DNA from: a virus
Strand: one strand, 5' to 3'
Length of the DNA: 64,000 nt
Virus record (IMG/VR): IMGVR_UViG_3300021964_000023
Coordinates: 1 to 64,000 of that record
Part shown: positions 27,652 through 64,000 of the stretch, piece after piece
Numbering within the stretch: position 1 is the first letter of the stretch
Layout: each line of letters begins with the position of its first letter
The notes under the pieces: model-generated
What the model was told of the DNA's origin: nothing
What the model saw: the letters and a program-made list of their open reading frames with translations, nothing else
The model's database searches: none
Made by a program: the position numbers and the translations under genes

Positions 27652-28272
27652 ATGGCACGAGACATCAGAACTATCAGCGCCTTTAAATCCAAATTAGCAG
27701 GTGGCGCTGCTAGACCCAACCTATTTGAGGTTGAGATTCCAAGCTTCCCCGCCTTCGTGGCGGGAAGTTGGGATAATGAAACTAGAGAGAAGTTTAGCTT
27801 CATGGCAAAAGCAGCAGCATTACCTGCTTCTAATGTTGCTCAAATCGAAATCCCATTTAGAGGAAGAGTTCTGAAGGTTGCGGGAGACCGCACTTTCGAT
27901 GTGTGGACTGTAACAATCATCAATGATGAGGACTTCAGAATCCGTACAGCAATGGAACTTTGGATGAACATGCTGAGCAAGTTAGATAACGCAACTGGCG
28001 CTACTAACCCTAGCTCTTACATGGTTGATGCATTTGTTCATCAACTTGGTAGAGGTATTAGCAAAGAATCCACTGGTCATGGTGGGGAGGCAACTCAATA
28101 TGAGGCTCCTCTGAGATCCTACAAGTTCTATGATATCTTCCCAACTAATGTTGGTCAAATTGATCTGTCCTATGAATCGACTGATACTCCAGAAGAGTTT
28201 ACGGTTGATTTCCAAGTACAATACTGGACAGCGGGCGAGACTGGAGATCAAACGTCAACAGTAATCTCCTGA
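27652..28272 (+). CDS. gp19: tail tube protein gp19
   Basis: 206 aa (T4 163 aa). It polymerises into the inner tail tube. Visible family features: N-terminal SAFKSKLAGGAARPNLFEVE, the central IEIPFRGRVLKVAGDRTFDV with TVTIINDEDFRIRTAMELWM, and the C-terminal DIFPTNVGQIDLSYES...FTVDFQVQYW. A near-perfect Shine-Dalgarno (CGGAGG) lies ten bases before the ATG. Neighbours gp18 and gp20 are in T4 order. Confidence 0.95.
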   Translation: MARDIRTISAFKSKLAGGAARPNLFEVEIPSFPAFVAGSWDNETREKFSFMAKAAALPASNVAQIEIPFRGRVLKVAGDRTFDVWTVTIINDEDFRIRTAMELWMNMLSKLDNATGATNPSSYMVDAFVHQLGRGISKESTGHGGEATQYEAPLRSYKFYDIFPTNVGQIDLSYESTDTPEEFTVDFQVQYWTAGETGDQTSTVIS

Positions 28273-28297
28273 TATAAGTTAGTGCTATTTGTTGTAT

Positions 28298-28305
28298 AAT
28301 AAATA
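28298..28305 (+). promoter_or_regulatory. late promoter motif AATAAATA before gp20
   Basis: Sits within TATAATAAATAG in the 61-base gap between gp19 and gp20 and ends 28 bases before the portal ATG. The overlapping TATAAT could also act as a host -10 element. Confidence 0.55.
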
Positions 28306-28333
28306 GTACTAACAGTTTTACGCCCAAGTTATA

Positions 28334-29995
28334 ATGGCGAAGTTATTTGGTTTTTCCATCGAAGATGGTGATAATAAGCCGAAAGGTGCAGTCTCCCCCG
28401 TTCCTCAAAATAATGAGGACGGGGTAGATCATTATCTGACGAGTGGATTTTTTGGTTCTTATGTTGACATTGAGGGCGTCTATAGATCTGAATATGATTT
28501 AATTAAACGTTATAGAGAGATGGCACTGCATCCAGAGGTGGATGGTGCAATTGAAGATATTGTTAACGAAGCAATTGTAAGCGATACTAATGATAGTCCT
28601 GTTCAGATTGAATTATCTAATTTGAACGCAAGCGATGGTCTTAAGAAAAAAATCAGAGAAGAATTCAAATATCTCCTTGAATTGCTTGACTTTGATAAAA
28701 AAGCACATGAGATCTACAGAAACTGGTATGTAGATGGTAGACTTTATTATCATAAAGTAATTGACCTCAAAAATCCTAGTGATGGTATCCAGGAACTAAG
28801 ATATATTGACGCATTAAAAATGCGTTTTATTCGTCAAGCAGGTAAACAAAAGAAAGAAGATATTAGATATCAACCAAACGCTGAGAAAGATCCTAAAGAT
28901 GCAGGATTCCCAGACATTCAAGAATACTTTATTTACAACCAATCTACTAGTCAGATTGGTTCTATTGCAAATAGAGGATCTAATCAAGCATCTCAGGGGA
29001 TCAAGTTTGCAAAAGATTCTATCACATACTGCACTTCTGGTCTTGTAGATCGTAATAAAAATCTTACTCTGTCATATCTCCATAAGGCAATTAAAGGTCT
29101 TAATCAACTTCGTATGATTGAAGATTCTTTAGTTATCTATCGTCTGAGTAGAGCACCCGAGCGTCGTATCTTCTATATTGATGTTGGCAATCTACCTAAG
29201 ATGAAGGCAGAACAATACCTTCGTGATGTGATGATGAGATATCGTAACAAACTTGTATACGATGCTCAAACTGGGGAGATTCGAGATGACAAAAAGTATA
29301 TGTCTATGTTGGAAGACTTCTGGCTTCCTAGACGTGAAGGTGGTCGTGGGACCGAAATCTCAACTCTTCCTGGAGGTCAAAACCTTGGAGAATTGTCTGA
29401 TATCAAGTACTTCCAAGAAAAACTCTATCGTTCATTGAATGTCCCAACATCCAGAATTGGGGGTCAAGAAGGATTCAACCTTGGTCGTTCGTCAGAAATT
29501 CTTAGAGATGAATTGAAGTTCACTAAGTTTGTTGGGCGACTGAGAAAGAGATTCTCTGCCATGTTTAATGATCTCCTCAAAACTCAGTTGATTCTCAAAA
29601 ATATTGTATCTCCAGAAGATTGGAATACAATGTCTGAGCACATTCAATATGATTTCCTTTATGATAATCACTTCTCTGAACTCAAAGATGCAGAGTTGAT
29701 GACCGAGAGACTTAATATCGCTGCAACTGCAGAACCTTATATTGGTAAGTATTACTCTCAAGATTATGTTCGTCGTAAGATTCTTCGTCAGACTGATGAG
29801 GAAATTATCGAACAAGATAAATTAATCAAACAAGAAATTGCCGCAGGAATTATTCCTGATCCTAATGCACCAGTCGATCCTGCAACTGGAGAACCAATTC
29901 CTGCTGGTGGTGAGGATTTAGGAGAACCAATTCAAGAACCGAATCTTGATGGGGCAAAAGATGGAGGAAGTACGGAAGCACCTGAAATAGTCTGA
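28334..29995 (+). CDS. gp20: portal vertex protein gp20
   Basis: 553 aa (T4 524 aa). The dodecameric portal sets up head assembly and is the DNA channel. Recognisable blocks: YREMALHPEVDGAIEDIVNE, RNWYVDGRLYYHKVID, ELRYIDALKMRFIRQ, GLNQLRMIEDSLVIYRLSRA, APERRIFYIDVGNLPKMKAE, MLEDFWLPRREGGRGTEIST and LPGGQNLGELSDIKYFQ, with PTSRIGG after it. The C-terminus is acidic, Pro/Gly-rich and probably flexible. It has a late promoter upstream and is followed two bases later by an oxygenase-like gene. Confidence 0.95.
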   Translation: MAKLFGFSIEDGDNKPKGAVSPVPQNNEDGVDHYLTSGFFGSYVDIEGVYRSEYDLIKRYREMALHPEVDGAIEDIVNEAIVSDTNDSPVQIELSNLNASDGLKKKIREEFKYLLELLDFDKKAHEIYRNWYVDGRLYYHKVIDLKNPSDGIQELRYIDALKMRFIRQAGKQKKEDIRYQPNAEKDPKDAGFPDIQEYFIYNQSTSQIGSIANRGSNQASQGIKFAKDSITYCTSGLVDRNKNLTLSYLHKAIKGLNQLRMIEDSLVIYRLSRAPERRIFYIDVGNLPKMKAEQYLRDVMMRYRNKLVYDAQTGEIRDDKKYMSMLEDFWLPRREGGRGTEISTLPGGQNLGELSDIKYFQEKLYRSLNVPTSRIGGQEGFNLGRSSEILRDELKFTKFVGRLRKRFSAMFNDLLKTQLILKNIVSPEDWNTMSEHIQYDFLYDNHFSELKDAELMTERLNIAATAEPYIGKYYSQDYVRRKILRQTDEEIIEQDKLIKQEIAAGIIPDPNAPVDPATGEPIPAGGEDLGEPIQEPNLDGAKDGGSTEAPEIV

Positions 29996-29997
29996 TT

Positions 29998-30660
29998 ATG
30001 AATTTATATCATAGATTTTTGGATATTGGGGAGTATGTCCCCAATATTGATGTGTCAAAATATCGCACGGAAGGAATACGTTGGCCAGAGTTCCATAAGC
30101 AATTAGAGTTTAAAGATCTCGGTAACGATAAGATAAAACCCTGGTTAGAGAGTATGGGATTTACCTCTACATGGATTGAATTTTTCTACACACCTCCACA
30201 TGATGATGGTGTAATTCACTCTGATAATGTTTATTATGCTGACTGGGCAAAGTTAATCTTTCAATTCGGTGGTGAAGGTAGCACCATGAGATGGTGGAAA
30301 TCTGATATGGTGATGAGAGTTAGTACCAGTGCAGAACAAGTTTGCTCAACTCAAATTCCAGAGAGGAGTGAATATAATGTAGGTGATAGAACTAATGATC
30401 ACTATCATGGACAAGTTCTTGTAACAAGAGAACAGTATTCGACTTTAGAATATGAAGCAGATGTATCTACTCCAAGTTTAGTGAATGTAGGTCCTCTTCA
30501 TAGCTCACATAATCCAACAGATAATAAAAGATTTACTGTTACTATTGCTCTTATGGACAAAAACACTCCATATGAGAGAAGAATTTTGTGGGATGAAGCA
30601 ATTGAAGCATTCAAACCTTACACAGTTGATTCTTTAGCAAACCTTTACGCCTCAAAATAA
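29998..30660 (+). CDS. 2OG-Fe(II) oxygenase-like / cupin-fold protein
   Basis: 220 aa. A likely double-stranded beta-helix: HSDN (His 74, Asp 76) followed by WAKLIFQFGGEGSTMRWW, and later VGPLHSSHNP (His 168/171) and KRFTVTIAL (Arg 178), which together match the H-x-D...H...R metal and 2-oxoglutarate pattern. Substrate unknown. It lies outside the usual T4 core, appended to gp20, and its last 50 bases overlap the tail of the convergent radical SAM gene on the other strand. The oxygenase call rests on the motif pattern only; a non-catalytic cupin is possible. Confidence 0.6.
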   Translation: MNLYHRFLDIGEYVPNIDVSKYRTEGIRWPEFHKQLEFKDLGNDKIKPWLESMGFTSTWIEFFYTPPHDDGVIHSDNVYYADWAKLIFQFGGEGSTMRWWKSDMVMRVSTSAEQVCSTQIPERSEYNVGDRTNDHYHGQVLVTREQYSTLEYEADVSTPSLVNVGPLHSSHNPTDNKRFTVTIALMDKNTPYERRILWDEAIEAFKPYTVDSLANLYASK

Positions 30661-32362
30661 ACACAGTGTGGGGATCATTCCTGTCAAATTCTTTAAACTC
30701 AGTATCTACAGTATACTTTTCAGTTCCACAATTTAACTGATACGGATACTCAGTATCCTCATCAAAAATAAAAGCTTTTTGAAGTTTTAGAATATCTTTA
30801 TCAACCAAATTAAGGTCGGATAAGATATTAAATATACTTTGCTTATTTCTGAACATAAAGGCAAAACTTGCAGCATGAAGAGTGTGTCCGTGCTTTCCTT
30901 GATCCAGAATCTTACCAGTCTTCATATAGTGAGATACTGATCTTTCAATCTCTCTATAATGATTTCCAATAATGCCAATATCATTCCTTATATACTCAAA
31001 TAGGGTATCATAGAAAGTTCTATATCCTACTCCTAGACTATTGAGATGCTTAGCTACAAGTTGAGTGTAACCAGCAATATGAAATTGAATGACTAACCAA
31101 CCATAAAGATATGCTTCAATTAGTTCATCATTAGTCATTGTGTTGGTTTCCGAGATCAACTCGATGACTTCTTTGATGCCATGGTCATCTTTACTGAAGG
31201 ACATATAGTCTTCTGCTTTGATAGTCTTAATACCATGAACCTCTCTTGACAAAGCACTATTCAAATCAGTATCACCAAACATTTGACAGAACCAAACATC
31301 AATAGATTCATGTTGTCCACACTCAAGTATCTGAGCAAATCCATCCTTCCAAGAATCTAAAGTCTCTTCTGGTAATCCAAGTATCAACTCAGTGTATGTT
31401 TTTACACCATACTTTTTACTCTTTTCAATTTGCTCGGAGATTTTATTGATACTCATGTTCTTTCTCTTAATCGATTTAAGAGTTGGTTCATTCATACTTT
31501 GAACACTAAGTGTTACTCCTCTACTAATATCACCGAGGATCTTAGCAATTTCAAATATAACTTCAGTTGAGTTCTTTGAATATTGAACATTAATCGCTTC
31601 TATTTTACCACGATTTGCTGCATCTCGGAAGAGTTTAGCAATCTCAAGATCTCTTTCTTTGAACATTCCAAAGTTTGCATCTGCATTAAATATGAATCCG
31701 ACATTATGCCTTGCTGCCCAATCAATATCTTGTTCGATTCTTTCCAATCCAAAGTGCTTAACTTTCTGGTATGTCATTCCACCCCAGTCACAATAAGTGC
31801 ATCTATGGGGACAACCCCTATTGGTCTCTATTGTCATGGACCAGAGAACATCAGGATTATCTGCAATTATTTTATTAAACACTCCCAATTGATATGGACT
31901 TTGGAAGTCTAAATCTTCTATCCTTTCTTTTTTATAGATTCTCTCATAAGGTTCATTCATGATTATCTTCCTAAGAAGATCTAAAAATGATTGTTCACCT
32001 TCAGACACAATAATACAATCAATGAAGTCATATTTTGCAAGTTTCTCGGTTGCTTGAGGTCCACCAAATTCTATAACGCAATGTGGATACTTCTCTTTTA
32101 TTAACTTAGCAACATGCAGATTGTATTGTTCATTCCAAATGTATGTGCTAAATGCACAAACTACTGGATCTTCCAATCTCGCAACAAGTTCTTCTGGATT
32201 CTCTCTTTTAAAAATAAAATCCTTCAAGTGATAACCACTAGCAACATCACCATACTGAAGACAATATGCCCAAAGACACCCAACACTATACGGTAACCAA
32301 TACGTATCCTCTTTTCTAACTTCTACCGCATATTGCGGTTGAAACATGTATAGATTTCTCAT
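30611..32362 (-). CDS. B12-binding-type radical SAM enzyme, copy 2
   Basis: 583 aa. An N-terminal cobalamin-binding-like domain (residues ~5-140, with CAFSTYIWNEQYNLHVAKL and IEFGGPQ) is followed by a radical SAM core with the CxxxCxxC cluster motif CPHRCTYC (Cys 184/188/191), then DWGG, and strand motifs FIFNADANFGMF, TLSVQSMNEPTLKSIKRK and YTELILGLPEETLDSWKDG. The C-terminal ~200 residues form a helical accessory domain. Such enzymes do methyl transfer or other radical chemistry on unreactive carbons; the substrate is unknown. Its start overlaps the stop of copy 1 by four bases (ATGA), so it is the third gene of a minus-strand operon. Confidence 0.82.
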   Translation of the reverse strand: MRNLYMFQPQYAVEVRKEDTYWLPYSVGCLWAYCLQYGDVASGYHLKDFIFKRENPEELVARLEDPVVCAFSTYIWNEQYNLHVAKLIKEKYPHCVIEFGGPQATEKLAKYDFIDCIIVSEGEQSFLDLLRKIIMNEPYERIYKKERIEDLDFQSPYQLGVFNKIIADNPDVLWSMTIETNRGCPHRCTYCDWGGMTYQKVKHFGLERIEQDIDWAARHNVGFIFNADANFGMFKERDLEIAKLFRDAANRGKIEAINVQYSKNSTEVIFEIAKILGDISRGVTLSVQSMNEPTLKSIKRKNMSINKISEQIEKSKKYGVKTYTELILGLPEETLDSWKDGFAQILECGQHESIDVWFCQMFGDTDLNSALSREVHGIKTIKAEDYMSFSKDDHGIKEVIELISETNTMTNDELIEAYLYGWLVIQFHIAGYTQLVAKHLNSLGVGYRTFYDTLFEYIRNDIGIIGNHYREIERSVSHYMKTGKILDQGKHGHTLHAASFAFMFRNKQSIFNILSDLNLVDKDILKLQKAFIFDEDTEYPYQLNCGTEKYTVDTEFKEFDRNDPHTVFILRRKGLLKNQLCKV

Positions 32363-34164
32363 AATTTTACTAAAGTGTTCTTTGTCAAATCCTTACGTTT
32401 AATCACAAACAAATTATATCTTTCTTCTTCTGTTCTTTCATTTTCTATAGAATATCTGGTATCTTTTTTATCCCATGTGTCCAAATCAAAAGGTAAAGTA
32501 GATACACAAGGATAGTCTACATCAGGATCATACATAAATTTCTTTTGAATAGTAAACACATCATCATCAATATTTAATACTTCGTCTGCAAATTTTTTAA
32601 CAAAGTCTAAAATTCTTTCTTTGTTTTCAAATTTTGATAATGTGTCATTAGGCATACCAACACCAAGTCCATGACCACTTGAATGATTCTTAGGAACCTT
32701 TCCAGTTGCAAAATACTCTCGAATTGCTTTTAGATATTCTCTAAACTCAACACCTAAAAATCCAGAGTCATTTATAGTATAGTCATATAGAAGCTCATAA
32801 AACTTTCTGTAACTCATTCCCAAAACATGCCTACAATATTTTGACAGTATTTGAGTATACCCAACATAATGAAATTTAATTGTTATCCATGAGAACATGT
32901 GAGCATCAAAAAATTCATCTTCTGTCATTGTATCTGTTGCACGAATGAGTTCAATATATTCTTTGGTATCATCAAACTCATCATTACAAAATGAAATGTA
33001 GTCTTCTGCTTTAACAGTTTTTATACCATAAGTCTTTCTACTAAACTCACTTCCAAGTTCTGCGTTCTCAAATACTTGACAAAACCAAGAATCGACAGAA
33101 AAATGTTGTCCATTCTCCATCAATAAATCTATACCATCCTTCCAGGAATCCACAGTTTCTTCAGGCATTCCAAGAATTAAGTCTGTATATAATTTTACAT
33201 TATACTTGTTAGCAAGATCAACATGACCAGCAATATCTTTCACATGAAGATTCTTTCTTTTAATCGCTTTTAGAGTTGGCATGTTCATACTTTGAACACT
33301 CAAAGTAACTCCTCTACGAGAATATTCTCCCATAATTTGTGCTATTTCAAAAGCAGCTTCATTTGAGTTTTTGGAATATTGAAGATCAATATTGTCAAGC
33401 ATTAAACTATTCTCTGCTGCTTTGCGTAGCATTTTTGCTATTTCAATATCGCGTTCTTTAAAAATTCCAAAATTAGCATCTGAGCATAAGACATATGCAA
33501 CTCTATTTGTTCTAATCCACTCAATATCTTCAGCGACTCTCTCTAATCCAAACTTATTGATTTTACTCATTGTTGTTCCTCCCCAATCACAAAATGTGCA
33601 TCTGTGAGGACACCCTCTATTTGTTTCTAAAATTGCAGCCCATATGACATCTGGATTTTTTTCAGACAACCAATCAAAAACACCAGACTGATATGGACTT
33701 TTAAATTCTAGATCATTTAATCTTTGACGTTCATGAACTTTATCAATTTTATTTCCAGCATTAATGTCACGAAGTAATTTTAAAAATGCCTCTTCACCTT
33801 CACCCAGTATAACACAGTCAATGAATGGATTTTCATCCATCATTTTTGTAGTAACTTGCGGACCACCAAATTCAATAATACAATTTGGATATTTCTCTTT
33901 GATTAGTTTGGCAACATGCAGATTATATTGCTCATTCCACAAATAGCAGCTAAATGCACATATTACTGGATTTTCTAATCTATCTAAAAGATGTTCTGGT
34001 TTTTCTCTTTTAAAAACAATATCTTTTAGATCATAAGATTTTTTTATATCATCAAATTCTTTACAATAACTCCATAAGCAAGCAACACTATATGGCATCC
34101 AATAATTTTTAGTGTCTCTTACATTGACACTATATTGTGGCTGAATGAAGTATACGTTTTTCAT
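32359..34164 (-). CDS. B12-binding-type radical SAM enzyme, copy 1
   Basis: 601 aa and clearly a paralog of the next gene: in an ungapped hand alignment 69 of the first 103 residues are identical. Same architecture: cobalamin-domain-like CAFSCYLWNEQYNLHVAKL and IEFGGPQ, radical SAM cluster CPHRCTFC (Cys 185/189/192) with DWGG, YVLCSDANFGIFKERD, VTLSVQSMNMPTLKAIKRK and YTDLILGMPEETVDSWKDG, then a helical C-domain. The canonical B12 DxHxxG motif is not seen, as in many class B radical SAM proteins, so cobalamin use is likely but unproven. ATGA overlaps on both sides indicate a coupled operon with the glycosyltransferase-like gene. Confidence 0.82.
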   Translation of the reverse strand: MKNVYFIQPQYSVNVRDTKNYWMPYSVACLWSYCKEFDDIKKSYDLKDIVFKREKPEHLLDRLENPVICAFSCYLWNEQYNLHVAKLIKEKYPNCIIEFGGPQVTTKMMDENPFIDCVILGEGEEAFLKLLRDINAGNKIDKVHERQRLNDLEFKSPYQSGVFDWLSEKNPDVIWAAILETNRGCPHRCTFCDWGGTTMSKINKFGLERVAEDIEWIRTNRVAYVLCSDANFGIFKERDIEIAKMLRKAAENSLMLDNIDLQYSKNSNEAAFEIAQIMGEYSRRGVTLSVQSMNMPTLKAIKRKNLHVKDIAGHVDLANKYNVKLYTDLILGMPEETVDSWKDGIDLLMENGQHFSVDSWFCQVFENAELGSEFSRKTYGIKTVKAEDYISFCNDEFDDTKEYIELIRATDTMTEDEFFDAHMFSWITIKFHYVGYTQILSKYCRHVLGMSYRKFYELLYDYTINDSGFLGVEFREYLKAIREYFATGKVPKNHSSGHGLGVGMPNDTLSKFENKERILDFVKKFADEVLNIDDDVFTIQKKFMYDPDVDYPCVSTLPFDLDTWDKKDTRYSIENERTEEERYNLFVIKRKDLTKNTLVKL

Positions 34165-35033
34165 ATAAAATTTTGATGTAGAGTTTTATACTTATCCTCA
34201 AAATATTTAGAGTCCCACCTACTGATGTCTCTTTCCATCAATATATCATTATTCTTTCCATATGAAAAAAATTCATCTAGGGTAAACTTATCTCTATCAT
34301 GTGTCCACCATTCATAATATGCTTCATAGCAAAAGATAAACGTCATCATTGGATACCAACTTCCTTTATGGGATGCACCTTCAAGAAGAGGATTGCATGG
34401 AATCAAAGGTAATGAATAAGTTTTTCCACATTGGCATATGAAATAGTCAGGAGTTCCTGCAAGATCTATAAAGTGTCCGTTATCATTTATCCCAGAATCT
34501 CTATTTAAATAGTATGCATTTGCAACAGTGCCTTTAAAATTATACCCAGTACCATCAAAGAATAGTGATATTAATTTCTCAACATAACTTCTTTTCAATA
34601 AAGAAGGACCAGTTGAGTAATTAGGTTCAATTGGATGAAGATAAAATCTAACCTTATCTTCACACTCAAATCCCATTTGAAGGCAATCCCAATCATACGG
34701 GAGTCGATCAATCAAGTCCTTCCAAGTGAAGTGCCATAGATCAACAAAACTAAGGTCATAATCATCTTCCATTAAAATTACATATTCGTCTTTAGATTCA
34801 AAGTACCATTTTTTTAGAGTATCTATCAAATAACAATTGTATGCTAAACATCTAGTTGATGCTTTTTCAGAATGCCCTGGACTTAATTTATACAAAATAT
34901 CATCGTCTCTCATTACAACCATAGAATATCTCATGTTGTAATAATTGAACTGATTTTCCATGTATACATGTCTGTCTACCTTATCTGGTAGCGTAAAGCA
35001 GTATACATGCGGAATCCCATTCAAGGCAACCAT
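34161..35033 (-). CDS. GT25-like glycosyltransferase
   Basis: 290 aa. The N-terminus GIPHVYCFTLPDKVDRHVYM resembles the 'INLDRRxDR' opening of glycosyltransferase family 25; residues 85-97 (YVILMEDDYDLSF) give the acidic EDD metal/nucleotide-sugar motif, followed by YDWDCLQMGFE, also typical. It probably transfers a sugar to a glycan or protein; donor and acceptor are unknown. It is the first gene of the minus-strand operon, 18 bases downstream of a minus-strand late promoter motif. The intact reading frame and coupling to the radical SAM genes suggest one pathway. Confidence 0.68.
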   Translation of the reverse strand: MVALNGIPHVYCFTLPDKVDRHVYMENQFNYYNMRYSMVVMRDDDILYKLSPGHSEKASTRCLAYNCYLIDTLKKWYFESKDEYVILMEDDYDLSFVDLWHFTWKDLIDRLPYDWDCLQMGFECEDKVRFYLHPIEPNYSTGPSLLKRSYVEKLISLFFDGTGYNFKGTVANAYYLNRDSGINDNGHFIDLAGTPDYFICQCGKTYSLPLIPCNPLLEGASHKGSWYPMMTFIFCYEAYYEWWTHDRDKFTLDEFFSYGKNNDILMERDISRWDSKYFEDKYKTLHQNFI

Positions 35034-35051: not shown

Positions 35052-35059
35052 TATTTATC
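35052..35059 (-). promoter_or_regulatory. minus-strand late promoter motif GATAAATA
   Basis: The plus-strand TATTTATC reads GATAAATA on the minus strand and points toward the glycosyltransferase/radical SAM operon, whose first ATG is 18 bases downstream. It shares its last base with the plus-strand promoter motif. Confidence 0.5.
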
Positions 35060-35089: not shown

Positions 35090-35251
35090 ATGGACGACAT
35101 TTTAGATATGATTATCGGTGACGAATCTCCATCGAACGTCTCTGATAAGATCAAAGATATGCTCTATGCAAAGACTTCGGAAAAGGTAGAAGCACTGAGA
35201 CCTGAGGTGTCAAACAGTATGTTTGATGATGCTGGTGAGGTTGAAGACTGA
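35090..35251 (+). CDS. small prohead core candidate (gp67 position)
   Basis: 53 aa, MDDILDMIIGDESPSNVSDK onward, with IKDMLYAKTSEKVEALRP and an acidic end (FDDAGEVED). The ATG at 35090 follows a late promoter motif and the gene ends 40 bases before gp21. T4 has the small acidic core protein gp67 (80 aa) and gp68 in this slot; short proteins with a 'DIxDMLYAKxxEK' helix precede the prohead protease in many marine T4-like phages. The prohead core role is inferred from position and acidity, not from clear homology. Confidence 0.68.
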   Translation: MDDILDMIIGDESPSNVSDKIKDMLYAKTSEKVEALRPEVSNSMFDDAGEVED

Positions 35252-35291: not shown

Positions 35292-35945
35292 ATGAAGCTG
35301 ATTAGGGAAGAGATTGAGAAGGTTGAAGTTCTCACTGAGACCGTTAATGGTAAGAAGAACATGTTCATTAAGGGTGTGTTCCTCCAAAGTGAGATGGTCA
35401 ACCGTAACGGTAGAATGTACCCCTTTCCAATCATGGAAAGAGAAGTGAAGAGATATTCTAAGGATTATGTTGCTAAGGGCAGAGCACTTGGCGAACTGGG
35501 TCATCCTGATGGTCCAACCGTAAACCTCGATAGAGTATCCCATAAAATTACCGAACTCAAGCAGGACGGTAATAACTTTATCGGTAAAGCACAAATTCTG
35601 CATACCCCTATGGGTAAGATTGCGGAAGCACTTCTCAAAGATGGCGTAACACTCGGCGTGTCTTCTCGTGGAATTGGTTCCCTGAGAGATAACGTCAAGT
35701 CGGGTTATAAAGAAGTTGGTGAAGACTTCATGTTGGCAACTGCTGCTGACATTGTTGCTGATCCATCTGCTCCTGATGCTTTTGTTCAAGGCATCATGGA
35801 GGGTAAAGAATGGGTTTGGGATGGAGGTATCCTCCGCGAAAAACTCGCTCAACAAACACAAATGAGAATTGAAGCAGCATCTAGACAAAGGGTATTAGAA
35901 GAGAAGAAATTGGACTTGTTCAATGACTTCCTGAATAATCTTTAA
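35292..35945 (+). CDS. gp21: prohead protease gp21
   Basis: 217 aa (T4 212 aa). This serine protease cleaves scaffold, capsid and internal proteins after (L/I)-x-E during head maturation. Conserved core: GVFLQSEMVNRNGRMYP, the catalytic-His region LGELGHPDGP (His 71) and the Ser region LGVSSRGIGSL (Ser 124/125), then ADIVADPSAPDAFVQGIMEG. It lies between the core-protein candidate and scaffold, as in T4, under tandem late promoter motifs. Confidence 0.94.
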   Translation: MKLIREEIEKVEVLTETVNGKKNMFIKGVFLQSEMVNRNGRMYPFPIMEREVKRYSKDYVAKGRALGELGHPDGPTVNLDRVSHKITELKQDGNNFIGKAQILHTPMGKIAEALLKDGVTLGVSSRGIGSLRDNVKSGYKEVGEDFMLATAADIVADPSAPDAFVQGIMEGKEWVWDGGILREKLAQQTQMRIEAASRQRVLEEKKLDLFNDFLNNL

Positions 35946-38720: not shown

Positions 38721-38742
38721 AAATTATCTTGGAATGTTTAAG

Positions 38743-39543
38743 ATGAAGGATGTTCTGATAACTTTTGGATGTAGTTGGACCTTTGGTCAAGGTTCTGCAT
38801 ACAAAGAAGGGATGACAGAAGATGAATACGATAAAATTTATCTTGACAAAGATTTATGTTGGGAGAATGGTTGGAGAAGACATGTTGTAGAACATTTTGA
38901 TTTTGACCATATAAACTTTGGTCTTGGTGGTAGTAGTAATGATAAGCAGTTTAGATTAGCACAAAAATTCTTTGTATCTAAAAGATTCAAAGAGATATAT
39001 CAACAAAATAGAAAGATATATGTTTTATGGGGTACAACTTCTGTTAATAGATATGATTTTTGGATCAAACAAAACTATCAGTATGAGCATATCTTTTTAA
39101 AGCATACTGATGGTCAGGATGTTCATCCAGATCTATTTGGAAGAAATTCAGAACCTATAGACCATATTGCTGCTTGTTTGACTAAATATTCTTACTATGA
39201 ACCTGCTAGAGTAAAAGAATTAGAACTTCAATTTTTACATTGGAATCAGTATTTTAAACTACTGGGTATTAAAAATTTTTGGTATGATACATTCTCTTCA
39301 TTTAATTATTCAGTAGATCTTCCAAACTTTTTTGACTTGAAGAAAAGAAGAAGAGATCTTTTATCTGTTCTCGTCAATAAGCATAGAGAAAAAGTCAAAT
39401 CAAAAATACCTATATGGCATATTGATGATTTTGTATATGCCCGTGATAATAATTTGCTGAATCCATATACATATCATCCCAAAACTGATGGATATAAGCA
39501 ACTAGGTGATCATATGATCAAAAAACTTCAGGAGCATATCTAA
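38743..39543 (+). CDS. SGNH/GDSL-type hydrolase
   Basis: 266 aa from ATG 38743; an in-frame ATG nine bases upstream is possible but too close to the GGA ribosome site. SGNH blocks: block I DVLITFGCSWTFGQG with the nucleophile Ser 11, block II NFGLGGSSNDK (Gly), block III LWGTTSVNR and block V YHPKTDGYKQLGDHM with the catalytic His. Such enzymes hydrolyse esters, for example acetyl groups on polysaccharides or lipids. Similar proteins are common accessory genes in marine phages. A role in modifying cell-surface or virion glycans is inferred. TAATG overlap with the next gene. Confidence 0.75.
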   Translation: MKDVLITFGCSWTFGQGSAYKEGMTEDEYDKIYLDKDLCWENGWRRHVVEHFDFDHINFGLGGSSNDKQFRLAQKFFVSKRFKEIYQQNRKIYVLWGTTSVNRYDFWIKQNYQYEHIFLKHTDGQDVHPDLFGRNSEPIDHIAACLTKYSYYEPARVKELELQFLHWNQYFKLLGIKNFWYDTFSSFNYSVDLPNFFDLKKRRRDLLSVLVNKHREKVKSKIPIWHIDDFVYARDNNLLNPYTYHPKTDGYKQLGDHMIKKLQEHI

Positions 39544-44342: not shown

Positions 44343-46054
44343 TGATTTGTTTTGAGAAGATTCGTTACAAGAACTTTCTTAGTACTGGAAATCAATTTAC
44401 TGAATTAGATTTTACAAAAGCATCAACTACTCTTGTTGTTGGCAACAATGGTGCTGGTAAAAGCACAATGCTTGATGCATTGACTTTCTCTCTATTCGGT
44501 AAATCATATCGCGGTGTTAATAAACCTCTCTTGATTAACTCTGTTAACGAGAAGGATTGTCTTGTTGAGATTGAATTTAAAATTGGGAATACTGCTTGGA
44601 AGGTTGTGCGTGGCATTAAACCTACAGTATTCCAAATTTATAAAGATGGGGAACTATTAAACTCTGATGCAGCTTCCAAAGACCAGCAGACCTGGTTGGA
44701 GAGAGTAGTTCTAAAGATGAATTATAAGTCATTTACTCAGATCGTGATTCTGGGTAGTAGTAACTTCATTCCCTTTATGCAACTCCCTGCAGCATCTAGG
44801 AGAGAAGTTATTGAAGATTTGTTGGATATTAAAATCTTCTCCTCTATGAATACTGTTGTAAAGGAGAATATTAAATCAATTAAAGATGAAATTCGTACTC
44901 TAGACTATAAGACCGATAATCTTGAAGAGAAGGTCAAGATGCAAAAAGACTTCATTGTAGAAGTTGAGAGACTTGCTACAGAAGATATTGGTGCCAAGAA
45001 AAATCAAATCAAAACTCTAACAGATACTCAAGATAAACTTTTAAAAGACTCTTTGGATGTTGAGAATTCTTTGATTGAAAAGCAAAAAGAACTTGAAAAG
45101 TATTCTGGTGCAACTGCTAAGTTGAGGAAGTTGGGTAATTTAAAGGGTAAGATCTCACAGAAGGTATCTGTCATTACTGAAGAACATAAGTTTTTTAGTG
45201 ATAATACGGTTTGCCCCACTTGTACCCAGTCTATTGAAGAGACCTTTAGAATAAATAGAATTAGCGACGCTCAAAATAAAGCAAAAGAGTTGCGTTCTGG
45301 TTTTATACAACTAGAAGAGGCAATTAAAGAGGAAGAAGATCGAGAGCGTCACTTCTCTACAGTTTCTAAAGAGGTTACTAACCTTACACATGAGATTTCT
45401 CAAATCAATACTAAGATCTCTGGATATCAAAGACAAGTCCGAGATCTTGAACAGGAAATTCAAACTGTTGCCACTAGACTTGCAGAAAGAAATTCTGAAC
45501 ATGAGAAGCTAGAGAGTTTACAAGAACAATTTAGGACCGCTTCCGAAGAGACGGAATCTAAAAAAGATCAACTGACTAACTTTAACTTTGTGTATGATCT
45601 TTTAAAAGATGGAGGCGTCAAAACACAAATCATTAAAAAGTATCTGCCACTTATTAACAGTCAAGTTAATAAGTATTTGCAGATGATGGAGTTTTTCATT
45701 AACTTCTGCCTGGACGAGGAGTTTAATGAATCAATCCAATCTCCCATCCAAGAGGATTTTTCTTACTCTTCATTCAGTGAAGGTGAGAAGATGCGTATCG
45801 ATCTTGCTCTCTTGTTTACGTGGAGAGAGATTGCTAAGATTAAGAACTCTTTAAATTGTAACCTCATCATCTTTGACGAAACTTTTGACTCGTCTCTTGA
45901 TGGGTTTGGAACCGATGAATTCATGAAGATTATTCGGTTTGTTATTAAGGACGCTAATACGTTTGTCATCTCTCATAAAGAGGGAATGCGTGATAAGTTC
46001 TTAAACGTGTTAAAATTTGAGAAGCAAAAGGGATTCAGTAGGTTAGTTGTATGA
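44342..46054 (+). CDS. gp46: recombination nuclease subunit gp46 (Rad50-like ATPase)
   Basis: 570 aa (T4 560 aa). Walker A GNNGAGKST at residues 34-42, long coiled-coil arms, the zinc hook CPTC at 291-294, the ABC signature FSEGEKMRIDLALLF and Walker B NLIIFDETFDSSLDG. Works with gp47 on DNA ends. Last codons overlap the ATG of the epimerase gene (GTATGAATT), so that accessory gene is inserted seamlessly into the operon. Confidence 0.95.
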   Translation: MICFEKIRYKNFLSTGNQFTELDFTKASTTLVVGNNGAGKSTMLDALTFSLFGKSYRGVNKPLLINSVNEKDCLVEIEFKIGNTAWKVVRGIKPTVFQIYKDGELLNSDAASKDQQTWLERVVLKMNYKSFTQIVILGSSNFIPFMQLPAASRREVIEDLLDIKIFSSMNTVVKENIKSIKDEIRTLDYKTDNLEEKVKMQKDFIVEVERLATEDIGAKKNQIKTLTDTQDKLLKDSLDVENSLIEKQKELEKYSGATAKLRKLGNLKGKISQKVSVITEEHKFFSDNTVCPTCTQSIEETFRINRISDAQNKAKELRSGFIQLEEAIKEEEDRERHFSTVSKEVTNLTHEISQINTKISGYQRQVRDLEQEIQTVATRLAERNSEHEKLESLQEQFRTASEETESKKDQLTNFNFVYDLLKDGGVKTQIIKKYLPLINSQVNKYLQMMEFFINFCLDEEFNESIQSPIQEDFSYSSFSEGEKMRIDLALLFTWREIAKIKNSLNCNLIIFDETFDSSLDGFGTDEFMKIIRFVIKDANTFVISHKEGMRDKFLNVLKFEKQKGFSRLVV

Positions 46055-46968
46055 ATTGCTTAGTAACAGGTGGTAGTGGATTTATTGGTTCTAATTTGGT
46101 AGATGCTCTAGTAGGTGCTGGACATACGGTAACAGTAATTGATAATGAGTATTCGGATGCTCATGACCAGTTTTATTACAATGAGAAGGCACATTATGTA
46201 AAGCAAGATATTTGTAATTACGAACTCACTAGAATTTTTTATTGTGGGGTTGATTGGGTCTTTCATCTTGCAGCAGAAGCAAGGATTCAACCAGCAATTA
46301 AAAATCCACTTAACGCTGTTAAAATTAATACTCTTGGTACAGCAACCGTTCTTCAATGTGCTAGAGAAGCAAATGTTAGCAGGGTGATTTACTCATCTAC
46401 TTCCTCTGCATATGGATTTAATTCTCCACCAAACACTGAGACTCAAGGAGATGACTGTCTGAATCCTTATTCAGTATCTAAGGTTGCTGGTGAGAAGTTG
46501 TGTGCGATGTATACTGATCTGTTTAATCTCAATACGATTATCTTCAGATACTTTAATGTTTATGGTGAGCGTCAACCACTTAAAGGTCAATATGCTCCTG
46601 TGATTGGAATTTTCCTTCGTCAACTTGCTAATGGTGAAGAGTTGACTGTAGTTGGTGATGGTGAGCAACGTAGAGACTTTACTCATGTCTCTGATGTTGT
46701 CCAGGCAAATATTCTTGCCGCAACTAAAGATCTACCTGAAGACGCTTTTGGTAAAGTTTATAATGTGGGTAATGGGGAGAACTACTCTGTCAATGAGATT
46801 GCAGCGATGATCTCTTCCAGGAAGCGATTCATTGATGCTCGTCCAGGAGAGGCAAGAATCACTCTTGCAGACAACTCTAGACTTAAAGAGACCCTTGGTT
46901 GGGAACCTACAGTAGACCTTAGGGAGTGGGTTGCCAAAGCAGTGGACAGTGTAAAAACTGGTTCCTGA
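46051..46968 (+). CDS. NAD-dependent nucleotide-sugar epimerase/dehydratase
   Basis: 305 aa, extended short-chain dehydrogenase. Rossmann motif GGSGFIGSNL at the N-terminus, FHLAAEARI, active-site SSTSSAYG and the YxxxK pair in PYSVSKVAGEK, FRYFNVYGERQ, then sugar-nucleotide-binding GDGEQRRDFTHVSDVV. Closest to UDP-glucose/UDP-glucuronate 4-epimerases; the substrate cannot be fixed by eye. It lies between gp46 and the VWA gene. With the glycosyltransferase, SGNH and sulfotransferase genes it suggests glycan remodelling. Confidence 0.85.
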   Translation: MNCLVTGGSGFIGSNLVDALVGAGHTVTVIDNEYSDAHDQFYYNEKAHYVKQDICNYELTRIFYCGVDWVFHLAAEARIQPAIKNPLNAVKINTLGTATVLQCAREANVSRVIYSSTSSAYGFNSPPNTETQGDDCLNPYSVSKVAGEKLCAMYTDLFNLNTIIFRYFNVYGERQPLKGQYAPVIGIFLRQLANGEELTVVGDGEQRRDFTHVSDVVQANILAATKDLPEDAFGKVYNVGNGENYSVNEIAAMISSRKRFIDARPGEARITLADNSRLKETLGWEPTVDLREWVAKAVDSVKTGS

Positions 46969-49239: not shown

Positions 49240-50337
49240 ATGGGTCTCTCCAAAGAAGGCATCGTCAACTCTCTGCAAGATCTCTACGGAGATTCTGTGA
49301 CTGCAGCAGACATTCGTGCTTGGTGTGCGATGAACGATGCCAACTATCAGACCGTTACCAATAAAATTGCTGATTGTAAAGTTGGTCGTGGTAAGTGGAA
49401 TCTTACTGTTCGGGAACAGATGGAGCAAAACTACCAGGCACCTGCTGCATCCCCTGCAATTATTCCCTCTCAGGAACAAAACCTTATCCCTGAAAAAGAT
49501 GATTCCTTCGTCAAGTTTGGTAACTTCGCTGATATTAAAAAAATTATTCAGTCCCATCTATTCTATCCAACGTTCATTACTGGACTCTCTGGCAATGGTA
49601 AAACGCTCTCAGTTGAGCAAGCGTGTGCAGCTTTGGGTCGGGAACTCATCCGCGTAAATATCACTATTGAAACTGATGAAGACGATCTTATTGGTGGCTT
49701 CCGTCTTATCGATGGGGCAACTGTTTGGCATAATGGACCTGTCGTTGAAGCACTCGAACGAGGAGCAATCCTGCTACTCGATGAAATTGACCTTGCTTCC
49801 AACAAAATTCTATGCCTCCAGTCCATCCTTGAAGGTAAGGGTGTGTTCTTGAAGAAGATTGGTAAGTTTGTTCAACCTACCGCTGGGTTCAACGTCATTG
49901 CAACTGCCAACACTAAGGGTAAGGGTAGTGATGATGGACGATTCATTGGAACCAATGTTCTCAATGAAGCATTCCTTGAGCGATTCCCAGTGACGTTTGA
50001 GCAGTCTTATCCTACGGTCTCTGTTGAGAAGAACATTCTCTCCAAGATTTGTGGTGATGATGACTTCTGCCAACGTCTTGTAGATTGGGCAGACATTATC
50101 CGTAAGACCTTCTATGATGGTGGTATTGAAGAGATCATCAGCACCCGTCGTCTGGTTCACATTGTTAAGGCATATGAGATCTTTGGCAATAAAGAGAAGG
50201 CAATGCAAGTTTGTATCAATCGATTTGATGAAGATACCAAGCAAGCATTTCTGGAACTCTACGACAAAGTTGATGCTGACTTTGACCTGACTGCTACTGG
50301 TGAGAAGGTATACATTGACCAAGAGATTGGATCCTGA
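49240..50337 (+). CDS. cobS: CobS-like AAA+ ATPase
   Basis: 365 aa. MoxR/CobS-clade AAA+ ATPase: Walker A GLSGNGKT (115-122), Walker B AILLLDEIDLAS (Asp 181, Glu 182), sensor FNVIATANTKGKG and FLERFPVTFEQSYP. The N-terminal ~60 residues hold a small helical domain (SVTAADIRAWCAMNDANY). CobS is a widespread cyanophage gene assigned to cobalt insertion in cobalamin synthesis; the neighbouring VWA protein fits a CobS-CobT-like pair. No CobN is seen here. A promoter for the next operon is embedded in its last codons. Confidence 0.9.
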   Translation: MGLSKEGIVNSLQDLYGDSVTAADIRAWCAMNDANYQTVTNKIADCKVGRGKWNLTVREQMEQNYQAPAASPAIIPSQEQNLIPEKDDSFVKFGNFADIKKIIQSHLFYPTFITGLSGNGKTLSVEQACAALGRELIRVNITIETDEDDLIGGFRLIDGATVWHNGPVVEALERGAILLLDEIDLASNKILCLQSILEGKGVFLKKIGKFVQPTAGFNVIATANTKGKGSDDGRFIGTNVLNEAFLERFPVTFEQSYPTVSVEKNILSKICGDDDFCQRLVDWADIIRKTFYDGGIEEIISTRRLVHIVKAYEIFGNKEKAMQVCINRFDEDTKQAFLELYDKVDADFDLTATGEKVYIDQEIGS

Positions 50338-62863: not shown

Positions 62864-63412
62864 ATGAAGAGCATTAACCCAGAACTAATCGGTGATTTTA
62901 AATCCATTGATTACCCTGCACGCAGACAGTTCCCTAGCGATGAGATTGTAGAGCGTTGGAAAAATCTTGGTCATCTGTATGTCAATTATACTGGACTTCT
63001 TCGTGAAGAGTATCGCGGGGTTCCTGAATGGAGTCATGAGATCGTAAAGGTTCTTAGGAAGAAATATATTCCAGTTGGTGATAAGTGGTACTTTATGGAT
63101 AAGACTTCTTTGTCACTCTATAACATGCCCCCAGGCACAATTATGCCAGAGCATGAGGATACTTATCCAAGGTTCCGAGAGATCTATGGAGAACCAGACA
63201 TCAATAAAATTTGTAGAGTTCTAATTTTTCTTGAAGACTGGAAGACGGGACACTATTTTGAACTGGATCGTCAACCATATACCAAATGGAAGAAGGGTGA
63301 TTATCTTTATTGGACTGGAGATACTACTCACCTTGCAGCAAACCTTGGTAAAGAGAATAGATATACTATGCAAATCACGGCGACTTTAAAATGCGGAAGC
63401 GAAGAGCAGTAG
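62864..63412 (+). CDS. 2OG-Fe(II) oxygenase / Asp-Asn hydroxylase-like protein
   Basis: 182 aa from ATG 62864; a TTG two codons upstream overlaps the gp41 stop. Jelly-roll motif: MPPGTIMPEHEDTYPRFREI (His 97, Asp 99), WTGDTTHLAANLG (His 156) and RYTMQITATL (Arg 167), the H-x-D...H...R pattern of 2OG oxygenases; the 'PPGTIMPEHED' region resembles aspartyl/asparaginyl hydroxylases. Substrate unknown. Lies immediately after gp41, and overlaps the next gene by 22 bases. Confidence 0.7.
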   Translation: MKSINPELIGDFKSIDYPARRQFPSDEIVERWKNLGHLYVNYTGLLREEYRGVPEWSHEIVKVLRKKYIPVGDKWYFMDKTSLSLYNMPPGTIMPEHEDTYPRFREIYGEPDINKICRVLIFLEDWKTGHYFELDRQPYTKWKKGDYLYWTGDTTHLAANLGKENRYTMQITATLKCGSEEQ

Positions 63413-64000
63413 TAGATGATCTTGTAGAGCAGTATGGTAACTACTGCTCTACTTTTACTTTTAAGTTAAGATCTGGATTAGAAGGACAAATCCATAAAGA
63501 AGGATTTATTAATTGCTTCTGGCATAAAACTAGTAAATTAGTTTATATGCATATTGATAAGTGTGGAAGTACATCAGTGTCCTCTGCACTAAAGTTACAT
63601 TGTCCTAACTTTTTGTCTCTTGATTTATTAAAGACCGACAAAGATCCAGATTACCTTGCAAAATATTTTGTTGAGAGTGGTCACACATTTTTTGCTGTTA
63701 CTAGAGATCCAGTCCAACGGTGGATCTCTGGATTAAATGAATTTATGTGTAGATATAAACCACCAATTGATTGGGTCATAAAACAAATTGAGAATGGTAA
63801 ATATATTTTTGATGAACACACTGGACCTCAAACAGCATTTTTGAGATTGTGTTTGGAGAATGAAGGAAAGTTGAAACTTATTAAATTGGATGGTGATTTA
63901 TCTACAAAAGTAAATTTATTTGTAAAAAATCATACGTCAGATTATAAACCATTTGAAGTGCCTCACCTTAGAGATTCAAAATATTTCACCCCCAATTTCA
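63391..64000 (+). CDS. sulfotransferase-like protein (3' end cut off)
   Basis: About 203 residues visible, open to the window end. Starts MRKRRAVVDDLVEQYGNYCS at 63391, inside the end of the previous gene. Sulfotransferase signatures: KLVYMHIDKCGSTSVSSALK (PAPS 5'-phosphosulfate loop) and FFAVTRDPVQRWISGLNEFM (3'-phosphate loop). Such enzymes sulfate sugars, lipids or proteins. An alternative start is the Met of MHIDKCGS, but the upstream frame is intact. The rest lies outside the window. Confidence 0.72.
   Translation, partial: MRKRRAVVDDLVEQYGNYCSTFTFKLRSGLEGQIHKEGFINCFWHKTSKLVYMHIDKCGSTSVSSALKLHCPNFLSLDLLKTDKDPDYLAKYFVESGHTFFAVTRDPVQRWISGLNEFMCRYKPPIDWVIKQIENGKYIFDEHTGPQTAFLRLCLENEGKLKLIKLDGDLSTKVNLFVKNHTSDYKPFEVPHLRDSKYFTPNF

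Follow-up and report, generated by a model that had tools for sequence, protein, structure and literature searches.

The first 64,000 nucleotides of IMG/VR virus record IMGVR_UViG_3300021964_000023 (G000, a fragment of 107,281 bp; those 64,000 nucleotides are called the window here) carry three minus-strand genes between the head genes gp20 and gp21. The genes are real, complete and overlapping, and encode a GT25-like glycosyltransferase (GT) followed by two B12-binding radical S-adenosylmethionine (SAM) proteins, rSAM1 and rSAM2. In our judgement it is fairly probable that they form a late-expressed, exchangeable module that would attach a sugar to, and C-methylate, a glycan of the phage's own making, which is probably carried on a virion protein. 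The features that bear most directly on this reading are the following.

28334-29995, plus strand: gp20 portal protein, flank (PF07230, E 1e-193)
30611-32362, minus strand: cassette gene 3, rSAM2, B12-binding/radical SAM protein, 583 aa, TokK/CysS-like, constant member adjoining gp20 (PF04055, E 1e-16; PF02310, E 3e-4)
32359-34164, minus strand: cassette gene 2, rSAM1, B12-binding/radical SAM protein, 601 aa, TokK/CysS-like, variable member (PF04055, E 6e-14; PF02310, E 1e-7; TokK, E 3e-73)
32548-35026, no strand: exchanged stretch, at 66-67% identity to L026, a locus of a near-identical phage, with flanks at 95.9% and 99.0% (blastn)
34161-35033, minus strand: cassette gene 1, GT25-like glycosyltransferase, 290 aa, "slot 4" ortholog of the phage GT25 array (PHROG 2835, E 2e-25; structural model; slot-4 clade, 99/99)
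35052-35059, minus strand: late promoter motif of T4 type belonging to the cassette, NATAAATA (GATAAATA), 18 nt ahead of the start codon of GT
35292-35945, plus strand: gp21 prohead protease, flank (PF03420, E 8e-38)
63391-64000 in the window, continuing to 64104, plus strand: sulfotransferase, start of the glycan cluster (PF03567, E 4e-6)

An antisense cassette in the gp20-gp21 interval

The coordinates, strands, start codons and stop codons given to the three genes in a preliminary description of this DNA all agree with the sequence, as does the ATGA coupling that it proposed: two overlaps, GT/rSAM1 and rSAM1/rSAM2, tie the three genes together. Its placement of the cassette between gp20 and gp21 is borne out by flanking matches to Portal_T4 and Peptidase_S77. 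In the cultured phages S-SM2 and SynMITS9220M01, whose gp20 is 76-77% identical, the interval consists of two small genes only. GC skew runs from -0.18 to -0.26 over the cassette and is mostly positive elsewhere, and no Rfam elements were found at 28-40 kb. In relatives the reading frames of the cassette genes are intact and under purifying selection, with ratios of nonsynonymous to synonymous substitution (dN/dS) of 0.03-0.18.

The cassette glycosyltransferase is the missing member of a GT25 array

The cassette GT matches PHROG 2835, a glucosyltransferase family; it has no Pfam match at E 1, and many of its cyanophage relatives are annotated as GT25. The acidic motif E89-D90-D91 is invariant in its alignment. 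A structural model (predicted local distance difference test score 83) resembled GT25 structures, the top Foldseek matches being Mimivirus R655 (1e-8) and COLGALT1, the collagen hydroxylysine galactosyltransferase (2e-7), so that the proposed GT25-like identity stands. The predicted fold is common to these enzymes and the cassette GT; identity to them is 13-14%.

The same virus encodes a glycan cluster that extends beyond the window. Between 63.4 and 71.8 kb G000 carries genes for a sulfotransferase, a short DegT aminotransferase, a 2-oxoglutarate (2OG) oxygenase, five GT25-like transferases, an amidinotransferase whose nearest relative is the inosamine-phosphate amidinotransferase StrB1 (E 2e-53), and a UDP-glucose/GDP-mannose dehydrogenase (UGD); MazG-like and tryptophan halogenase genes follow. 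A GDP-mannose dehydratase, an epimerase that by eye is of the GDP-fucose-synthase type, and a transferase of family GT11 are encoded at 97-100 kb, and a further GT25-like gene lies at 104.8 kb. The GT array sits between gp41 and mazG, and two main orders occur in IMG/VR: DegT-1-2-3-4-5-6-AMT and DegT-1-2-3-5-6-AMT, where AMT is the amidinotransferase. G000 has the second.

Phylogenetic analysis placed the cassette GTs within the slot-4 clade (99/99). Two long phage records, G001 and G002, have slot 4 in the array and cassettes without a GT, and G000 has an array without slot 4 and a GT in the cassette. At the level of metagenomes, arrays lacking slot 4 occurred with GT-bearing cassettes 12:1 and arrays with slot 4 with GT-less cassettes 8:2 (Fisher p 7e-4), a sample-level matching in which contigs are non-independent and cassette classes were assigned by hand. 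By its sequence the cassette GT supplies the one transferase, slot 4, that the phage's own GT25 array lacks from its set of six. A second connection comes from L040, where an rSAM2-type gene occupies the gp41-mazG interval in which G000 has its glycan cluster. Taken together, these data make a pathway link between cassette and glycan cluster appear well supported.

Dozens of viral contigs (L107-L147) carry GT25 arrays of stereotyped order, six or five members long, together with DegT and amidinotransferase genes; among isolates, only S-SCSM2R has an amidinotransferase more than 60% identical. G000 also encodes a third radical SAM protein of 275 aa (94742-95569; L013:1471-2298), 39% identical to a "maturase" of S-SCSM2R and flanked by a 2OG-Fe(II) oxygenase (PF13640) and another protein of 227 aa. 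A minus-strand gene of 212 aa at 96229-96867 (L248:230-868, minus), 2OG-oxygenase-like by eye, adjoins the GDP-mannose dehydratase, epimerase and GT11 genes.

The radical SAM proteins are related to TokK and CysS

PF04055 was detected above its cut-off in both radical SAM proteins. The B12-binding domain PF02310 scored 32.3 bits in rSAM1, against a cut-off of 32.1, and 21.1 bits in rSAM2, below it; rSAM2 is 50% identical to rSAM1 over its length. The nearest solved structures are TokK (E 3e-73; profile 2e-85) and CysS (E 1e-34). Cobalamin-dependent radical SAM methylases of this type are known from antibiotic pathways; they methylate sp3 carbons, often iteratively. The CxxxCxxC motif (C185/C189/C192) is invariant in 14 phage proteins and in a second alignment, with no loss of the 4Fe-4S cysteines in relatives. 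Trp76, also invariant in both alignments, aligns without gaps with Trp76 of TokK; a Trp fills the lower face of the cobalt in TokK (W76) and CysS (W75) (PMC12846815, PMC13331322). The earlier assignment of two B12-type radical SAM proteins therefore holds, and the possibility that rSAM2 is a decayed copy was set aside in view of its dN/dS and retained cysteines.

Against the KedN5 model NF033712 the two proteins scored 173 and 178 bits (rSAM2 178, E 2e-52) with a cut-off of 700, which places them as relatives of the KedN5 family and not members as curated. A homolog from S. cattleyicolor, which we take to be ThnK of the thienamycin producer, is 32% identical over 79%. In the tree, gp20-adjacent genes of rSAM2 type formed one clade (99/96) and upstream genes another (100/99). 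The proteins sampled from viral contigs all grouped separately from those sampled from bacteria, in a tree that carries long-branch warnings.

A late promoter motif precedes the cassette

The motif NATAAATA, the late promoter of cyanomyoviruses (PMC2984593), has 12 plus-strand matches in the window and a single minus-strand match, the one upstream of the cassette. Of 45 relatives, which are non-independent, 36 have ATAAATA no more than 60 nt ahead of their first cassette gene, and in seven of the other nine a small open reading frame (ORF) precedes the cassette. The whole 107 kb contain four minus-strand copies of ATAAATA, of which one more lies directly upstream of a minus-strand gene, that at 96229-96867. 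Expression of the cassette thus looks late, as had been suggested, on the strength of its own promoter motif.

GT and rSAM1 are exchanged between near-identical phages

Comparison of the window with L026 by blastn gave 95.9% identity over 28000-32547, 99.0% from 35027 onward and 66-67% between; the swapped stretch comprises GT and all of rSAM1 except its last 190 bp. Eleven IMG/VR loci match the gp20 of the window at 96% identity or more, and the upstream part is visible in ten. All ten carry a different rSAM1 allele, with rSAM2 93-100% identical, and in the nine with a visible GT this protein is 47-56% identical to that of the window. The window allele is retained in L001 (gp20 99%, GT 91%, rSAM1 97%). 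Because GT and rSAM1 vary while rSAM2 stays constant, these data suggest that the product probably differs between near-identical phages.

Distribution of the cassette and its relatives

A tblastn search with rSAM1 against 50,697 phage records (INPHARED) recovered two fecal phage contigs only, at 25% identity, and among the Campylobacter phages of that collection no protein was matched at E 1e-5. On these searches, no cultured phage is known with a GT and twin B12 radical SAM cassette. IMG/VR contained 79 related loci, 41-97% identical. The preliminary description had suggested looking for the cassette in other gp20-gp21 intervals, and in 73 of the 79 the genes lie in this slot, antisense beside gp20 and/or gp21 (exceptions: L040, L081, L084, L085, L088, L089). 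Layouts include GT+rSAM1+rSAM2 (window), GT+rSAM2 (L054), a single radical SAM gene (L083), three radical SAM genes (L020-L023, some cut) and two without GT (L028, G001, G002).

The gp20-gp21 slot, as these contigs present it, accepts other cargo too. A large structural-like ORF and a 106-aa ORF were seen on the gp20 strand of this interval in L047 (3732-5657) and L033 (4101-5657).

No psbA gene was found in the 107-kb fragment. The cassette-bearing G001 and G002 (246 and 149 kb) encode two Photo_RC genes each, which makes a cyanobacterium the likely, though unproven, host of G000.

In a genome-contig profile search, a phage-only alignment found no relative and a diverse alignment did. The bacterial TokK-like relatives lie in polysaccharide or nucleotide-sugar clusters, with up to six copies per locus: in Clostridia they occupy polysaccharide clusters, a GT2-like gene being present in 44 of 73 loci, and in Azospirillum the gene adjoins nucleotide-sugar genes. 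The TokK-like genes of other viruses (L081, L084, L088) have an epimerase, DegT or amidinotransferase-like gene next to them. These contexts, together with the slot-4 relation, considerably strengthen the link to an unusual glycan proposed in the preliminary description.

L164, L167, L169 and other Clostridia loci from rumen metagenome-assembled genomes carry up to six TokK-like genes with a GHMP kinase and a nucleotidyltransferase-HAD fusion, an expansion that may be undescribed. L166, binned as Candidatus Puniceispirillum and phage-derived by eye, combines a TokK-like gene with amidinotransferase-like, TauD-like and SPASM-like radical SAM genes.

Neighbouring genes

Further features of the window are these.

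29998-30660, plus strand: 2OG-Fe(II)-oxygenase-like protein, 220 aa, convergent with rSAM2 (H74-x-D76...H168...R178; weak fold matches)
35090-35251, plus strand: small 53-aa ORF in the gp20-gp21 interval, kept in relatives as homologous small ORFs (read from the sequence); possibly prohead-core-like, from its position
46051-46968, plus strand: nucleotide-sugar epimerase, possible precursor supply (PF01370, E 3e-57; PHROG 540, E 6e-94)
49240-50337, plus strand: cobS-like ATPase, possible corrinoid cofactor link (TIGR01650, E 2e-20, below cut-off; PHROG 249, E 3e-138)

The 220-aa gene comes directly after gp20 and shares 50 bp with the 3' end of rSAM2, an overlap maintained in close relatives. 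Its pattern H74-x-D76...H168...R178 is invariant in 17 aligned rows. Fold comparison of its model returned weak matches to 2OG/cupin proteins (E 3e-3, template modelling score mostly below 0.4), and no match was found in Pfam, PHROG, PDB sequences or INPHARED phages. The gene is often present beside the cassette, but several relatives are without it.

A 269-aa gene between gp23 and gp3 (38734-39543) has an SGNH-hydrolase-like start (ITFGCSWTFGQG) and no Pfam match; its homologs in cassette relatives are 35-72% (up to 100%) identical.

Proposed function and alternatives

We propose that a T4-type late promoter of its own drives transcription of the cassette, in the direction opposite to the head genes, and that the cassette GT, as fourth of six GT25-like transferases, would add one sugar of a chain. 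By analogy with TokK, ThnK and CysS, rSAM1 and rSAM2 would be cobalamin-dependent radical SAM C-methyltransferases, in which cob(I)alamin takes a methyl group from one SAM and another SAM yields the 5'-deoxyadenosyl radical that opens a C-H bond for the methyl group. From the genomic context, the methyl targets would be sugar carbons of the phage glycan or of its nucleotide-sugar precursor, with rSAM2 performing a step common to the lineage and GT and rSAM1 a variable step exchanged between phages. The finished glycan, with amino/guanidino and perhaps sulfated sugars, would most likely be attached to a virion protein in the cytoplasm. We prefer this destination because expression looks late, because the GT fold is like that of protein-glycan transferases, and because no multi-span membrane protein was seen in a simple hydropathy scan of the 107 kb, which fits a cytoplasmic acceptor.

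Several points weigh against this proposal. The known relatives of rSAM1 and rSAM2 act on carbapenams and cystobactamids, and scores so far below the KedN5 cut-off mean that the family gives no substrate class. The association of slot 4 with the cassette consists of three same-contig cases and the sample-level table, and phages with another array type (L148, L154) are without slot 4, no TokK-like gene being found in the 162-kb record of L154. The virion destination draws only on timing, location, kinship of the GT25 fold and the lack of membrane genes, and since G000 is a fragment, membrane genes may lie elsewhere.

The foremost alternative, which we regard as unlikely though well short of negligible, is remodelling of the host surface: a glycan tailored by the cassette would be placed on host lipopolysaccharide or envelope late in infection and block superinfection or re-adsorption of progeny. 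The bacterial TokK-like relatives do lie in surface-polysaccharide clusters, phage glycosyltransferases are often read in this way (for example in pelagimyophages, PMC7029224), and allele swapping would fit a competition resembling serotype conversion. However, late timing leaves little time for exclusion, and the simple scan of the 107-kb fragment showed no protein with at least two predicted spans, so that no flippase, polymerase or Gtr-type ligase was seen. Less likely than this, and improbable to our minds, is hypermodification of phage DNA, with a methylated and glycosylated base protecting against nucleases. T4 glycosyltransferases act on DNA, and some related viral loci have FolE/QueD/QueE-like genes adjoining the TokK-like gene; against it, the 107-kb record encodes no protein of the thymidylate-synthase/hydroxymethylase family (PF00303), the GT model resembles GT25 enzymes with glycan or protein acceptors, and six transferases, an aminotransferase and an amidinotransferase exceed, to our knowledge, the known DNA modifications.

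Maturation of a peptide or small molecule, in which a ribosomal peptide or secondary metabolite would receive methyl groups from the radical SAM proteins and be decorated by the GT, has a similarly low probability. C-methylase models for ribosomally synthesized and post-translationally modified peptides match distantly (TIGR03975, 3e-13), and a Streptomyces relative adjoins adenylation-domain genes. A conserved ORF of 47-66 aa (YPGPF...SDNDD) precedes rSAM1 in eight GT-less cassettes; it was seen neither in the window nor in cassettes with a GT and was set aside as a general precursor, and a weakly similar ORF in L110 stands beside a GT25 array at a locus without a TokK-like gene. No precursor peptide of this class was recognised in the window, and the slot-4 relation binds the GT to the glycan array. 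The ORF, with the pattern YPGPFxTxSDNDDxIAH, was recorded in L035, L043, L049, L050, L052, L074, L077 and L086. Finally, other phages do have other genes in the gp20-gp21 interval (a large ORF in G001 and G002), as would be expected if the cassette held neutral or host-metabolic auxiliary genes in a permissive slot, unlinked to any phage glycan; purifying selection, the kept order, slot and late motif, and the complementarity of the GT with the array make this very improbable.

Comparison with known systems

The preliminary description knew of no phage system like this one. Partial precedents exist, so that the cassette is not fully without precedent; what stands is that neither of them, as far as the available parts of the reports go, describes B12-type twins with a GT. 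One is found in Campylobacter phages CP220 and CPt10, whose interchangeable clusters encode five radical SAM proteins beside an amidinotransferase (PMC2853527). As here, these are large lytic phages with several radical SAM genes and an amidinotransferase, and the whole cluster is exchanged between close phages; the cluster lies outside gp20-gp21, and the available text names no GT in it (PMC2853527). Their amidinotransferase is 24% identical, and rSAM1 has no match there at E 1e-5. The pelagimyophages, marine and T4-like, carry radical SAM cassettes as the variable part of a host-recognition region, with glycosyltransferases nearby; that region is a different one, and the accessible portion of the report does not state the radical SAM class (PMC7029224). 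Synechococcus phage S-SCSM2R (PQ898602) shares GT25-like genes, DegT (61% to G000), an amidinotransferase (66%), a radical SAM gene and 2OG oxygenases, but its radical SAM protein is of another kind, the one related to the third radical SAM protein of G000, and no TokK-like gene was found in it. With the class-1 enzymes TokK/ThnK (carbapenam C6) and CysS (cystobactamid) the phage proteins have in common the B12 domain, CxxxCxxC and the Trp below cobalt. They differ in being about 30% identical, in forming their own viral clade, in occurring as a tandem of constant and variable members, and in a glycan context as opposed to a beta-lactam or non-ribosomal peptide one.

Implications

The cobS gene occurs in all complete cyanomyovirus genomes, with unknown consequence (PMC2984593). 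The cassette was excluded as a general explanation, since cobS is also present in cyanophages without it. A broader proposal, which we put forward tentatively and hold to be possible but doubtful, is a phage "serotype" system: uncultured cyanophage-like T4 viruses would bear on their virions a guanidinylated, C-methylated and perhaps sulfated glycan, made in the cytoplasm by the StrB1-like amidinotransferase, DegT, six GT25 transferases and B12 radical methylases, and diversified by swaps of GT and rSAM1 in otherwise constant genomes. If this were true, the demand for B12 could provide a role in these viruses for cobS, long a puzzle in cyanophages. The old question of why cyanophages have this gene becomes testable in a lineage with B12-dependent enzymes of its own.

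The TokK/CysS-type methylases described here form a sizeable viral clade under strong selection, which the relocation of a gene ties to a glycan built by the phage. Such a product would take phage glycan chemistry far past the glucosylation of virions or DNA known so far, and the exchangeable module suggests that selection acts on the product. More than 100 viral enzymes are offered as a set for assay.

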